Positions 29,668 to 48,067 of a stretch of DNA of 64,000 nucleotides are shown one piece after another. The translations under genes were made by a program, and so were the position numbers. Source of the DNA: Halobellus litoreus (GTDB lineage Archaea; Halobacteriota; Halobacteria; Halobacteriales; Haloferacaceae); the NCBI RefSeq assembly GCF_024464595.1, contig NZ_JANHAW010000001.1:1257083-1321082 (forward strand), read 5' to 3'. Positions within the stretch are counted from its first letter, which is position 1, and every line of letters starts with the position of its first letter. The notes under the pieces are model-generated. The model saw only the letters and a list, made by a program, of their open reading frames with translations. It was not told the DNA's origin and did not search any database.

Positions 29668-30330
29668 TCACCTGAGCACACCGTACAGGCGGTCGTCGCT
29701 GCCGACGGGATCGCCGGCGCCCTCGACACCGCTATCTTCCGACCCGCCGACGCCGGTCCCCGATTCATCGTCGCGGCCCGTCTCGCCGGCGTGCTCGCGG
29801 ATCTCGAACCCGAGCGCCTCGTAGAACGGCCGCACCTGCTCGTGGAAGCGGGCGACGAGCGGGCCCGCCGAGCGCGTCGCGGCCGCGTCGACGAGCGCGC
29901 GGCCGATCCCGCGCCCGCGCCGGGAGCGGTGGACGGCGATCGATTCGATCTCGGTCGCGGAGCGATCGGTTCCGACGAGGTCCGAGACAGCCGCGAAATC
30001 GCCCACGTCCGCCGGTTCCAGTCCGGTCGCGTCGCCGTCATCGTCCACCCCTGCGAGGACACAGACGCCGACGACGCGGTCCGCCAACGTCTCAGAGCCG
30101 TCGGCTTCGCGGTCTCTCCCCTCGGTGTCGCCCTCGCGCTCCAGTTCACCGGCTCCGGATTCGTCGACCTCCGCGGGCGTTCCGTACTCGTCGACCACGG
30201 CTACGAGCACGTCCCCAGCCTCGACGCGACGAACCAGTCGCTCCCGATCGAATTCGAGCATCGCGGCGTCGAGCAGTCGGGCGACGTCGTCGGCGTCGTC
30301 GGCCGTCGCCTCGCGGATCTCGTGGGTCAC
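29668..30330 (-). CDS. GNAT family N-acetyltransferase
   Basis: 220 residues from GTG 30330, chosen because [19 protein letters not shown] is the usual GNAT first strand and helix; an extension to 30375 uses a TTG. The acetyl-CoA motif is [22 protein letters not shown], with [14 protein letters not shown] after it. A highly acidic loop (about 52-82) and an acidic Gly/Ser tail (about 185-210) are unusual additions. Located 52 bases downstream of the SAMP2-like gene in the same direction, so possibly co-transcribed. The substrate is unknown. Confidence 0.85.
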
Positions 30331-30382
30331 GAGGGGAACCTCGCGGGTGTCGCGGGCGACCGAAACGCCTCGCAAGGGACCG

Positions 30383-30595
30383 TCATCGCGGCGACGATCC
30401 GCCCTTGATCAGCCGAAGCACCCGCACGCGGTCGACTTCCACGGGCTGATCCTCCGGCACCGGACTGCCGTCGATCAGCACCGAGACCTCGTGGGGCGAG
30501 TAGCCGACGGCACGGACGACGTCGGCGTAGGTGTCGGTGTCGCCGACTTCGACCGCCTCTTCGCCTTCGCCGACGACGTCGACGGTCACGCGCAT
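30383..30595 (-). CDS. samp2: SAMP2-like ubiquitin-fold modifier with C-terminal extension
   Basis: 70 residues of the MoaD/ThiS beta-grasp family. It strongly resembles Haloferax SAMP2 (segments [41 protein letters not shown]). SAMP2 is adenylated by UbaA and forms isopeptide bonds with target lysines or supplies sulfur for tRNA thiolation. It normally ends exactly at the diglycine; here SSPR follows it, so the protein would need trimming before use, for instance by a JAMM-type protease. ATG at 30595 is chosen by comparison. Next to rfcS, as in Haloferax. Confidence 0.9.
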
Positions 30596-43918: not shown

Positions 43919-44023
43919 GCGTCTGCGGCGCGCTTTCGCCCCTCACTCCCGTCGAGCGCGGGCCGATCACTTTCACTTCCCTTGGCGAAGACTCTTACCC
44001 GATGAGGACCCTACTCCGGTGCG

Positions 44024-47000
44024 ATGGCCCAGGCCCCCCAGGACTCGCGCGACCTCACCGATCGGTTCATCCAGTTCTATCGGAAGTACTACCGCGACGA
44101 GATCGGCACGCTCGCCCAGAAATACCCGAACGAACAGCGCTCGCTGTACATCAACTACGAGGACCTCTACAAGTTCGACGCGGAGTTAGCCGAGGACTAC
44201 AAGCAGAAACCCGACCAGATACGCGAGTACGCCGAGGAGGCGTTGCGCCTCTACGACCTCCCCGCCGACGTCAAACTCGGGCGCGCGCACGTCCGCCTGG
44301 CGAACCTCCCCGAGACGGTCGACATCCGGGGCATTCGGGTCCACGACGACCACATCGGCCGGATGATCGCGGTCCAGGGAATCGTCCGGAAGGCGACCGA
44401 CGTCCGGCCGAAGATCACCGAGGCGGCCTTCGAGTGCCAGCGCTGCGGGACGATGACCTACATCCCCCAGTCGGACAGCGGCTTCCAGGAACCCCACGAG
44501 TGCCAGGGCTGTGAGCGGCAGGGACCGTTTCACGTCGACTTCGATCAATCCGAGTTCGTCGACGCCCAGAAGGTGCGCGTCCAGGAGAGCCCCGAGGGCC
44601 TGCGGGGCGGCGAGACGCCACAGAGCATCGACATCGACCTCGAAGACGACGTCACCGGTCGGGTGACCGCCGGCGATCACGTCACCGTCACGGGCGTCCT
44701 CCACATCGAACAGCAGACCTCCGGCAACGAGAAGACGCCCATCTTCGACCTCTACATGGACGGGGTCGCCGTCGAGATCGAGGACGAGGAGTTCGAGGAC
44801 ATGGACATCACCGACGAGGACGTCGCCGAGATCGTCGACCTCTCGAACGAACCCGACATCTACGAGAAGATGGTCGCCTCCGTCGCGCCCTCGATCTACG
44901 GATACGACCAGGAGAAACTCGCGATGATTCTGCAACTGTTCTCGGGCGTGACCAAGCACCTCCCGGACGGGTCACGGATCCGGGGCGACCTGCATATGCT
45001 CTTGATCGGGGATCCCGGGACGGGCAAGTCCGCGATGCTTCAATATATACGCAACATCGCGCCCCGATCGGTGTACACCTCCGGGAAAGGCAGTTCGTCC
45101 GCCGGTCTCACGGCGGCCGCCGTCCGCGACGACTTCGGCGACGGCCAACAGTGGACGCTCGAAGCCGGTGCGCTCGTCCTGGCCGACAAGGGAATTGCGG
45201 CTGTCGACGAGCTGGATAAGATGAGATGCGTGACTGGCGATACGCTCGTCCATACGACAGACGGGATCCGGCCGATCCGTGAGCTCGCACACGAAGCTGC
45301 GTCGTCGGGAGTCATTGAGCCATTGTCGAACGGGCGGACGATCCGCGACGACGTCGCGGACGTCTGGACGCTCACAGAAGACGGGACACTCGTCACGCGG
45401 CCCGTTACCGCAGTCCACGAGTATGACGCCCCTGACACGCTCTACGAAGTGACACTCGAATCCGGGGAAGCAGTGTCGGCTACTGCCGATCACCCCTTCT
45501 TCGTCTTAGAGAGCGGTAAGCGAACCGAGAAATCCACTGGGGAACTTGAGCCCGGCGATTGGGTGTACGTGCCCGAGGCCGTTCGGGAAACGGCGACAGA
45601 CGGCGGTACGGCATCGGCTCCGATTCCAGAGACAGTCGGGAGCGAGCCCGGAGATACGGCGGATCTCCCCCCGGCAAAGGGTGCGATACTAGGGTATCTC
45701 GCCGGTGACGGCAACGTTTACAGCAACGAATCCGAGGGAAGTCACGGGATCCGGTTTACGAACAAGGAAGAACAACTCCTGAGTCACTTCGAATCCGTCT
45801 GCCGAACGGCGTACGGCAAAGAAGCGGTTCGTCACCCCAGTGAACAGCGAGACGATGGGGTCGAAACCGTCCGACTCCACGGGAAAGAGTGTGTTGACGA
45901 CCTCCTTGAATCAGGCCTGAACCTCGAAACGTACGAAAACAAACGTGTCCCGGTCGAAGTCACTCGGAGTGGTGGCGATACGAAAGCCGCCTTCATCCGA
46001 GGCCTCGCTGATTCGGAGGCGACCGTGGACCTACGGTCGGTCAAGATCCATTCCAGCAGTTACGACTTGCTGCTAGGGACGAAAATGCTCCTCTCGGAGT
46101 TCGGAATCCGCAGTCAAATACAGACCCGCTCGTACTCGAACAAGCGTGACCTCTATATTTTGGCGATTACTGCGGCAGATTCCCTGGAAGCGTACAACCG
46201 CGAGATCGGGTTCACACTCGACAGAAAGCAGTCGGCGCTGAACGAGGCAGTCGAACGGACGACTGGAGACAGAGCGATTATCGATGTCCTCCCGGAGATC
46301 GGGGACCGATTCCAGCGACTCCGAGAGTCGCTTCGGCTTTATCAGTCCGAATGCGGGCTCAACGATGCCACGTATTGCAATTTCGAGAACGGCGATGCCA
46401 ACCCATCACTTCATCGGGCTAGACGGATTGTCACCCGATTCACGGAACGCCGGCACCAGGCCTACGCCGACTTGGAACTGCTTGAGAAGTCCCCGTCGTG
46501 GACGGGTTTGAACGTTCTCCGTGACGAGTATCACGTCTCACAGCGAGAAATCGCCGAAGGAACAGCGTACACGCAACAACAGATCTCCCGTCTCTGGGGG
46601 CAAAACAATGCGCTCCGACGAACCGTCGTAGACCGGTTCCGAAGCATCCTGAAATCCATCTCGAATACAAATACATCTGGTATTTCCGCGCTGGTCGAGG
46701 CTGACGTTCGGTGGCGTCGGGTCGAATCTGTCGAGCCGACCGTGCCGTCTTCCGGCGACGATAGGATTCCGGTTTTGGAGCGTCAGTTAGCCGATGAGAT
46801 CGGTTGCGATCGTGACCGCGCCCGAGACTCCGCTCGGATGCTCCTCTCTACGGAGCCGACAGCCGAATCGTGGGACGAACTCCGCTGTGAACTCGAACGA
46901 CACAGCGTTTCGTTCCAGCGGCTCGCTGACCAGTTAGACGTTGCAGGATCGACAGTCTCTCGCTGGTTCTCGGGCACGGTCGACGTCGACAACTTCGAGG

Positions 47001-48067
47001 AAGTGCGACGTGCCGCATTCGAGTTGATCGAAGCGGTTCGAGCGCGGATTGCGTCGATTCACGACGAAATCGAGAGCCGGAATCGGTCACCAAAAGTGTA
47101 CGATCTCACGGTCCAAGGAACGCACAACTTCGTCGCGAACGGAATGGTTGTTCACAACTCAGAGGACCGCTCTGCAATGCATGAAGCGCTGGAACAGCAA
47201 TCGATTTCGGTATCAAAGGCCGGCATCAACGCCACCCTCAAATCCCGGTGTTCGCTGCTCGGCGCGGCCAACCCGAAGTACGGCCGCTTCGACCAGTACG
47301 AACCGATCGGCGAGCAGATCGACCTCGAACCAGCGCTCATTTCCAGATTCGACCTGATCTTCACGGTCACGGACAACCCCGACCCCGAGACCGACGCCGA
47401 ACTCGCCGAGCACATCATCAACACGAACTACGCGGGGGAGTTGAACACCCAGAAGTCCAAGATCCCGAGTTCGGAGTTCACCGACGGGGAGGTCGAGAGC
47501 GCGACCGAGGAGGTAACCCCCGAAATCGACGCGGAACTCCTGCGGAAGTACATCGCCTACGCGAAGCGCAACTGCTACCCGACGATGACCGACGAGGCGA
47601 AGGAGGTCATCCGGGACTTCTACGTCGACTTCCGGGCGAAGGGCGCCGACGACGACGCGCCCGTGCCGGTGACGGCGCGGAAGCTCGAAGCGCTCGTTCG
47701 CCTCTCGGAGGCCTCCGCGCGGCTTCGACTCTCGGATACGGTCGAACGCGATGACGCCGTCCGCGTCACCGAGATCGTCGAATCGTGTCTCCGCGACATC
47801 GGAATGGATCCCGAAACGGGTGAGTTCGACGCCGACATCGTCGAGACCGGGACCTCGAAGAACCAGCGCGATCGGATCAAGGACATCAAGCACCTGATCG
47901 AGGACCTCGAAGACGAGTACGAGGAGGGTGCGCCGGTCGAGCAGGTCATCGAACGCGCGGGCACGGACCTCGGCTTAGAGGAGACGAAGGCCGAAGACGA
48001 GATCGAGAATCTCAAGCGGAAGGGAGAGCTCTACGAACCGCGAAACGACTACCTCCGGACGACGTAA
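44024..48067 (+). CDS. mcm: Replicative helicase MCM containing an intein
   Basis: 1347 residues as translated; 703 after intein removal, the usual haloarchaeal MCM length. The N-terminal domain has the zinc motif ECQRCGTM..HECQGCERQ (about 139-172). Walker A is GDPGTGKSA (about 327-335), Walker B AAVDELDKM (about 391-400) and the arginine finger SRFDLIF lies in the C-terminal extein. MCM forms a hexameric DNA unwinding ring at replication forks. The intein (residues 402-1045) interrupts immediately after Walker B (DKMR), where splicing must restore DKMRSEDR. Downstream genes overlap by one base. Confidence 0.95.
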   Translation: MAQAPQDSRDLTDRFIQFYRKYYRDEIGTLAQKYPNEQRSLYINYEDLYKFDAELAEDYKQKPDQIREYAEEALRLYDLPADVKLGRAHVRLANLPETVDIRGIRVHDDHIGRMIAVQGIVRKATDVRPKITEAAFECQRCGTMTYIPQSDSGFQEPHECQGCERQGPFHVDFDQSEFVDAQKVRVQESPEGLRGGETPQSIDIDLEDDVTGRVTAGDHVTVTGVLHIEQQTSGNEKTPIFDLYMDGVAVEIEDEEFEDMDITDEDVAEIVDLSNEPDIYEKMVASVAPSIYGYDQEKLAMILQLFSGVTKHLPDGSRIRGDLHMLLIGDPGTGKSAMLQYIRNIAPRSVYTSGKGSSSAGLTAAAVRDDFGDGQQWTLEAGALVLADKGIAAVDELDKMRCVTGDTLVHTTDGIRPIRELAHEAASSGVIEPLSNGRTIRDDVADVWTLTEDGTLVTRPVTAVHEYDAPDTLYEVTLESGEAVSATADHPFFVLESGKRTEKSTGELEPGDWVYVPEAVRETATDGGTASAPIPETVGSEPGDTADLPPAKGAILGYLAGDGNVYSNESEGSHGIRFTNKEEQLLSHFESVCRTAYGKEAVRHPSEQRDDGVETVRLHGKECVDDLLESGLNLETYENKRVPVEVTRSGGDTKAAFIRGLADSEATVDLRSVKIHSSSYDLLLGTKMLLSEFGIRSQIQTRSYSNKRDLYILAITAADSLEAYNREIGFTLDRKQSALNEAVERTTGDRAIIDVLPEIGDRFQRLRESLRLYQSECGLNDATYCNFENGDANPSLHRARRIVTRFTERRHQAYADLELLEKSPSWTGLNVLRDEYHVSQREIAEGTAYTQQQISRLWGQNNALRRTVVDRFRSILKSISNTNTSGISALVEADVRWRRVESVEPTVPSSGDDRIPVLERQLADEIGCDRDRARDSARMLLSTEPTAESWDELRCELERHSVSFQRLADQLDVAGSTVSRWFSGTVDVDNFEEVRRAAFELIEAVRARIASIHDEIESRNRSPKVYDLTVQGTHNFVANGMVVHNSEDRSAMHEALEQQSISVSKAGINATLKSRCSLLGAANPKYGRFDQYEPIGEQIDLEPALISRFDLIFTVTDNPDPETDAELAEHIINTNYAGELNTQKSKIPSSEFTDGEVESATEEVTPEIDAELLRKYIAYAKRNCYPTMTDEAKEVIRDFYVDFRAKGADDDAPVPVTARKLEALVRLSEASARLRLSDTVERDDAVRVTEIVESCLRDIGMDPETGEFDADIVETGTSKNQRDRIKDIKHLIEDLEDEYEEGAPVEQVIERAGTDLGLEETKAEDEIENLKRKGELYEPRNDYLRTT
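45227..47158 (+). mobile_element. Intein with LAGLIDADG endonuclease motifs and extra HTH modules in mcm
   Basis: 644 residues. Splicing block A starts at Cys402 (CVTGDTLVHTTDG), block B is SATADHPFFVL, block F/G is VYDLTVQGTHNFVANGMVVHN; the next extein residue is Ser. Endonuclease motifs are ILGYLAGDGNV and FIRGLADSEATV (degenerate Asp/Glu). After them come three helix-turn-helix-like segments: LYQSECGLNDATYCNFENGD, VSQREIAEGTAYTQQQISRL and FQRLADQLDVAGSTVSRWFS. Codon use is more AT-rich than the extein. Homing into an intein-free mcm is the family mechanism. Confidence 0.92.

Follow-up and report, generated by a model that had tools for sequence, protein, structure and literature searches.

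How a ubiquitin-like modifier of the SAMP2 type becomes available for activation if its translation product does not end at the diglycine is a question raised by the SAMP2 gene of Halobellus litoreus, which lies in the 64,000-nucleotide stretch of DNA analyzed here (hereafter the window). Haloarchaeal sampylation was elucidated in Haloferax volcanii, where SAMP2 ends at GG and a maturation step has thus been no issue. We favor, with a probability of roughly 0.7, that SAMP2 is produced here as a ubiquitin-like precursor that would be cut by the protease JAMM1 after Gly66 before activation by the E1-like enzyme UbaA; it is from comparative evidence that we infer both the cleavage and its timing ahead of activation. 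In a literature search that largely covered papers available without subscription, no report of SAMP2 tails or SAMP2 fusions was found.

The SAMP2 gene of Halobellus litoreus and its tail

The gene is located on the minus strand (30386-30595; 30383-30595 including the TGA stop at 30383..30385) and encodes a protein of 70 amino acids that starts with MRVTV and ends with LIKGG-SSPR. Residues 1-66 (30398..30595, minus strand) constitute the β-grasp core with its LIKGG end, in which the diglycine (residues 65-66) closes the ubiquitin-like domain, followed by the S-S-P-R tail (30386..30397, minus strand) as the presumed propeptide. Profile searches gave 109.3 bits against NCBIfam NF041919 over residues 1-66 (cut-off 70) and 102.4 bits against Pfam PF21965 (cut-off 27), scores that exclude a different Ubl family. 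The alignment with the Haloferax SAMP2 structures 2l32 and 4hrs runs through KGG. The AlphaFold2 model has a mean pLDDT of 87 and the strands and helix of a β-grasp domain, while residues 66-70 have pLDDT values below 50 and are hence flexible in the model. Translation and profile scores thus bear out the sequence-only reading insofar as it described a SAMP2-like modifier with four residues past the diglycine. As SSPR follows GG, and as the family models require no terminal GG (the extended member exceeds both cut-offs), the gene product is, judged by its sequence, a SAMP2 precursor rather than a SAMP2 that ends at GG upon translation. SAMP2 is single-copy in this genome, with the second-best match at an E-value of 0.3.

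The same GG-SSPR-stop arrangement is found in the separately sequenced, named genomes of H. captivus (L033), whose SAMP2 is the nearest named relative (94% identity), and H. rufus (L034). In total, six Halobellus genomes carry an SSPR, SSRR or SSR tail; other congeners exhibit AE, TR, ten residues or no tail at all. The 12 bases of the tail vary among the four SSPR species at one position only, a third-codon base, whereas the 30 bases past the stop match at just 15-20 of 30 positions per pair. The tail hence behaves as coding sequence, and together with its sharing between species this pattern indicates that the gene is correctly predicted and its stop genuine. A sequencing error, which the sequence-only reading had named as a possible objection, or a frameshift is thereby ruled out. 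More broadly, that an error of sequencing or assembly or the chance extension of a decaying stop created the tail is hardly conceivable, given an identical tail in two independent named genomes and a lone third-position difference among four species.

Tails, fusions and gene neighborhood in haloarchaea

The extended form is not a peculiarity of one genome. In the taxonomic family of the window's genome (170 genomes with 157 SAMP2 matches, of which 150 were fetched), 57 SAMP2 genes stop at the diglycine and 93 read past it, so that the expectation that SAMP2 normally ends at GG does not hold for this family. Among the latter, 77 have 2-25 additional residues and 16 continue in frame for 128-177 residues past it, as fusions to a GNAT acetyltransferase or a peroxiredoxin-like domain. 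The comparison of SAMP2 C-termini over haloarchaea that had been proposed as a check thus reveals widespread tails in the family behind a constant diglycine, which is retained in all 150 genes, including the fused ones. Beyond this family, SAMP2 genes mostly end at GG. In the genus Halorussus (g37), 16 of 17 genomes encode a peroxiredoxin fusion and one a tail consisting of AV.

Within the family, two long extensions were profiled against Pfam, which identified an AhpC/TSA peroxiredoxin-like domain in Halopenitus (g17) and a GNAT domain in genus g18. By similarity to these two, the other fusions were assigned to the peroxiredoxin-like kind in g15, g17 and g28 and to the GNAT kind in g18 and in two species of g21. 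In eight aligned fusions from Halorussus and Halopenitus, VLRLIKGG is invariant and the linker behind it varies freely, as expected if the diglycine is used after a cut, unlike in a fusion that stays whole. A model of the Halorussus fusion with a moderate mean pLDDT of 65, and values below 50 for residues 62-103 (GG and linker), indicates only a flexible joint. Nearly all fused lineages have one SAMP2 match per genome.

A few genomes deserve separate mention. G378 harbors two SAMP2 genes (L389 and L439), each near a different end of one large contig, and their tails differ, one being SR and the other 17 residues long. In the metagenome-assembled genome SW_6_65_15, the SAMP2-redoxin frame (L083) departs from its relatives near the end in a way that resembles a metagenome-assembly frameshift. 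In two members of the window's genus (G098 and G100, 98-99% completeness), SAMP2 was not found at an E-value of 0.01; JAMM1 and other Ubls are present in both.

In the window, a GNAT acetyltransferase gene is situated 3' of SAMP2 (29668..30330, minus strand), as supported by 41.8 bits against PF13508 for the open frame 29668-30375. Its start is likely the GTG at 30330, as suggested by the sequences of relatives, 52 bases past the SAMP2 stop, with the open frame extending further to 30375. A GNAT gene directly downstream of SAMP2 is found in most relatives, and Table 1 of PMC2948915 already lists this neighborhood for Halobacteria. The fusions unite neighbors, since species without a fusion have the GNAT gene, and some of them also the redoxin gene, immediately downstream of SAMP2. 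Elsewhere in the window, positions 44001-48000 display a G+C content of 0.61 versus about 0.69 around, and may represent an acquired segment.

Tails, JAMM1 and the residue at the cut site

A plausible candidate for the removal of the tail is JAMM1. Haloarchaeal JAMM metalloproteases occur in two types, one of which matches PfJAMM1 (PDB 5ld9 and 5lda, the latter also including SAMP2) and the other AfJAMM. The window's genome encodes a JAMM1-type protein (L275) with the E, HxH, S, D motif that resembles PfJAMM1 (5lda). In the Haloferax JAMM1 type, counting on the sequence places Glu31, His88, His90, Ser98 and Asp101, which we take to be the residue numbers in use for HvJAMM1. Presence of JAMM1 was scored from the best PF14464 E-value per genome. 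These values are bimodal, with about 4e-15 or better in the presence of the JAMM1 type and about 4e-13 or worse if only the other type is found; the catalytic residues of 14 intact loci and a broken one were inspected as well. The AfJAMM-like second protease (JAMM2) is found in most genomes, including every JAMM1-lacking genome that was examined closely. In the Haloferax genome G033 (L280 for JAMM1; L032), the JAMM1 frame is devoid of the stretch bearing the catalytic Glu and resembles an internal deletion, which may reflect a recent loss or a faulty assembly. The SAMP2 and SAMP1-type proteins of G033 are tailless, and the SAMP2 tails of four Haloferax congeners are RA, RD or RS.

In the window's family, SAMP2 is tailed in 92 of 136 genomes with JAMM1. 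JAMM1 is lacking in 13 genomes, with G049 and G060 being only 83% and 73% complete, and broken in one; 13 of these 14 have a tailless SAMP2. The exception, G078 (79% complete), combines a SAMP2-GNAT fusion with the absence of a JAMM1 match, and JAMM1 is present in its genus mates. Outside the family, none of 80 JAMM1-lacking genomes has a tail (80 of 97 tested, the GG end having been read as sequence in 50 and deduced from a stop at residue 67 in 30). Genomes with JAMM1 are tailed in 24 of 160 cases (136 tailless; G175 among the 24 is a weak SAMP2 match), plus all 17 of Halorussus. At the genus level, tails occur in 26 of 70 genera with JAMM1 versus 0 of 26 without (Fisher's exact test, 6.6e-5), and stratification by family gives an exact P of 7.8e-4. 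With a tree built from the short SAMP2 core (a 66-residue marker, with G078 left out and genomes beyond the family represented by their fetched loci), an independent-pairs test yielded only three supported pairs, none of them contrary (P 0.5), and parsimony counted at least 22 changes in JAMM1 state and at least 26 in tail state. Shared ancestry of the species is hence controlled in part, by a stratification that holds and a tree test underpowered by its few pairs. The many tailless genomes that possess JAMM1 imply that this protease has other work as well.

The association is replicated in SAMP1/SAMP3-type modifiers. In 37 JAMM1-lacking genomes, all 38 copies end at GG, as does the copy of G033. 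In genomes with JAMM1, a set enriched for tailed SAMP2, at least 31 of 71 copies extend past GG. In Halobellus, a VAGG-ending protein is likewise tailed (ARGGVP in the window's genome). With Ala directly before the diglycine, as described for Ala90 of SAMP3 in PMC7305310, this protein is to be regarded as SAMP3-like. Some SAMP1/SAMP3-type copies extend into whole domains (L464, L466, L478, L482 and L502). The SAMP3-type proteins L464, L466, L478 and L482 from g17 (Halopenitus) and g21 (Halorubrum) share an extension of 114-136 residues with a YRGISRRLAAHYL segment. In L502 (G004), the sequence behind a VYGG Ubl is presumably DJ-1/PfpI-like.

Additional evidence comes from the residue that immediately follows the diglycine (P1'). 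In 135 tailed SAMP2 loci, it is S (60), A (43), R (12), T (8), G (3) or, in nine others, N, C, D, E, V, H or Q, thus for the most part Arg or a small residue, and never Pro. As background, the codons behind the stop of tailless genes give Pro in 12% and Pro or a bulky residue in 31% of cases. If each residue is counted once per genus (45 genus-residue pairs), Pro is found in 0 of 45 (P 0.005) and bulky residues or Pro in 2 of 45 (P 2.7e-5). Such a restriction points to a protease that has to accept the P1' side chain, and a neutral extension leaves it unexplained.

Proposed maturation and alternatives

E1-type adenylation requires a free C-terminal glycine. The SSPR tail past the diglycine would thus block the carboxylate that UbaA must adenylate, until the JAMM1-type metalloprotease encoded by the same genome cuts after Gly66. 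Sulfur transfer and conjugation to proteins would then be reserved for the cut SAMP2. Longer tails as well as the peroxiredoxin and GNAT fusions of relatives may undergo the same maturation, which would free both modifier and enzyme. That a maturation step precedes use, as the sequence-only reading had suggested, is supported, albeit not proved, by the invariant diglycine, the association with JAMM1 and a P1' position that avoids Pro and bulky residues. There is precedent for such a cut. According to PMC4443979, HvJAMM1 releases intact SAMP1 from a SAMP1-MoaE fusion in vitro by cutting precisely after GG, and this fusion is functional in cells only with jamm1. Likewise, CsJAMM cleaves SAMP precursors of Caldiarchaeum subterraneum and CsRpn11 takes nine residues off CsUb, as PMC6043591 describes. 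An uneasy fit with a cut precisely after GG is the statement, in PMC8832034, that the GG of SAMP1 is dispensable for the cleavage of linear fusions.

The same data can be held against other explanations. Another protease, be it JAMM2 of the AfJAMM type or some general carboxypeptidase, might remove the tail, with the link to JAMM1 merely reflecting shared ancestry of clades. This would agree with the occurrence of JAMM2-type genes in the closely examined genomes without JAMM1, with the scarcity of independent pairs on supported branches and with the G078 exception. Yet, if JAMM2 were sufficient, tails should also be seen without JAMM1, and they are encountered in 0 of 80 such genomes outside and, G078 aside, in 0 of 13 inside the family. 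Together with an association that persists by family stratum and recurs in SAMP1/SAMP3-type proteins, this renders the involvement of a different protease unlikely. The tail could also stay on harmlessly, so that SAMP2 works with it or acts purely as a non-conjugated protein, and short tails indeed change fast in sequence and length, even inside one genus. However, the diglycine is constant even in the 16 fused genes, no second SAMP2 copy is available here or in nearly all fused lineages, the P1' position is restricted, and a retained tail conflicts with the glycine terminus needed for adenylation; we thus deem this option quite improbable. Far-fetched, finally, is an origin of the tail in translational coupling, i. 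e. in bringing the stop nearer to the start of the GNAT gene that directly follows in most genomes. The probable GNAT start lies 10, 21 and 22 bases past the SAMP2 stop in three SSPR relatives, and further away in the window, in no case with an overlap. Coupling was rejected on these distances, and it would moreover explain neither the JAMM1 link nor the P1' pattern.

Implications and comparison with known systems

If cleavage by JAMM1 is correct, this protease would act both upstream of activation and downstream of conjugation in a family in which well over half of the SAMP2 genes encode precursors or fusions, and species with a tailed SAMP2 should respond to its deletion in the opposite way to those without a tail. 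Physiological partners of SAMP2 are hinted at by the natural fusions, namely a GNAT acetyltransferase and a peroxiredoxin-like protein, whose genes are its neighbors in the same array. A more far-reaching proposal, the odds of which we regard as evenly balanced, is that these fusions evolved several times and work like ubiquitin-ribosomal-protein genes, in that a JAMM1 cut after GG gives rise to equimolar amounts of modifier and enzyme. JAMM1 would then be maturation protease and desampylase in one, and could be lost only where all Ubls end at GG. SAMP2 fusions would provide a simple case of a ubiquitin-type precursor architecture that arose repeatedly in archaea.

The SAMP2 of Haloferax volcanii (2l32, 4hrs; NF041919) belongs to the same family by the curated cut-off and shares the VLRLIKGG end of the fold, but it ends at GG, while the SAMP2 of the window has four residues more. 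In eukaryotes, ubiquitin-ribosomal protein fusions and SUMO precursors are Ubls that are made with a C-terminal extension and matured by cysteine proteases. The extended Ubl is alike in both cases, whereas a zinc-dependent JAMM protease is proposed here. In the bacterial QbsE/QbsD and HcyS/HcyD pairs, C-terminal residues of the sulfur carriers are removed by JAMM proteases before thiocarboxylation. These resemble the system at hand in their short tail past GG, but they are part of bacterial biosynthetic clusters, whereas SAMP2 is also a protein modifier. The likeness to ubiquitin or SUMO precursors drawn in the sequence-only reading hence stands as far as the precursor form is concerned. The nearest parallels are nonetheless archaeal, namely the JAMM/SAMP precursors and the linear Ubl fusions of PMC6043591 and PMC4443979. 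The SAMP and ubiquitin precursors of Caldiarchaeum subterraneum, cut by CsJAMM and CsRpn11, are likewise archaeal Ubls with residues past GG, for which JAMM cleavage is documented there and predicted here. They stem from another archaeal phylum, in which every protease serves a single kind of Ubl (PMC6043591); the haloarchaeal tails, in turn, differ from one sister species to the next, and whole enzymes are among them. SAMP1-MoaE, which is released by HvJAMM1, is also a haloarchaeal Ubl joined via GG to another protein. In contrast to this fusion, which was engineered in Haloferax (PMC4443979), the SAMP2 fusions to peroxiredoxin-like and GNAT domains described here are natural.
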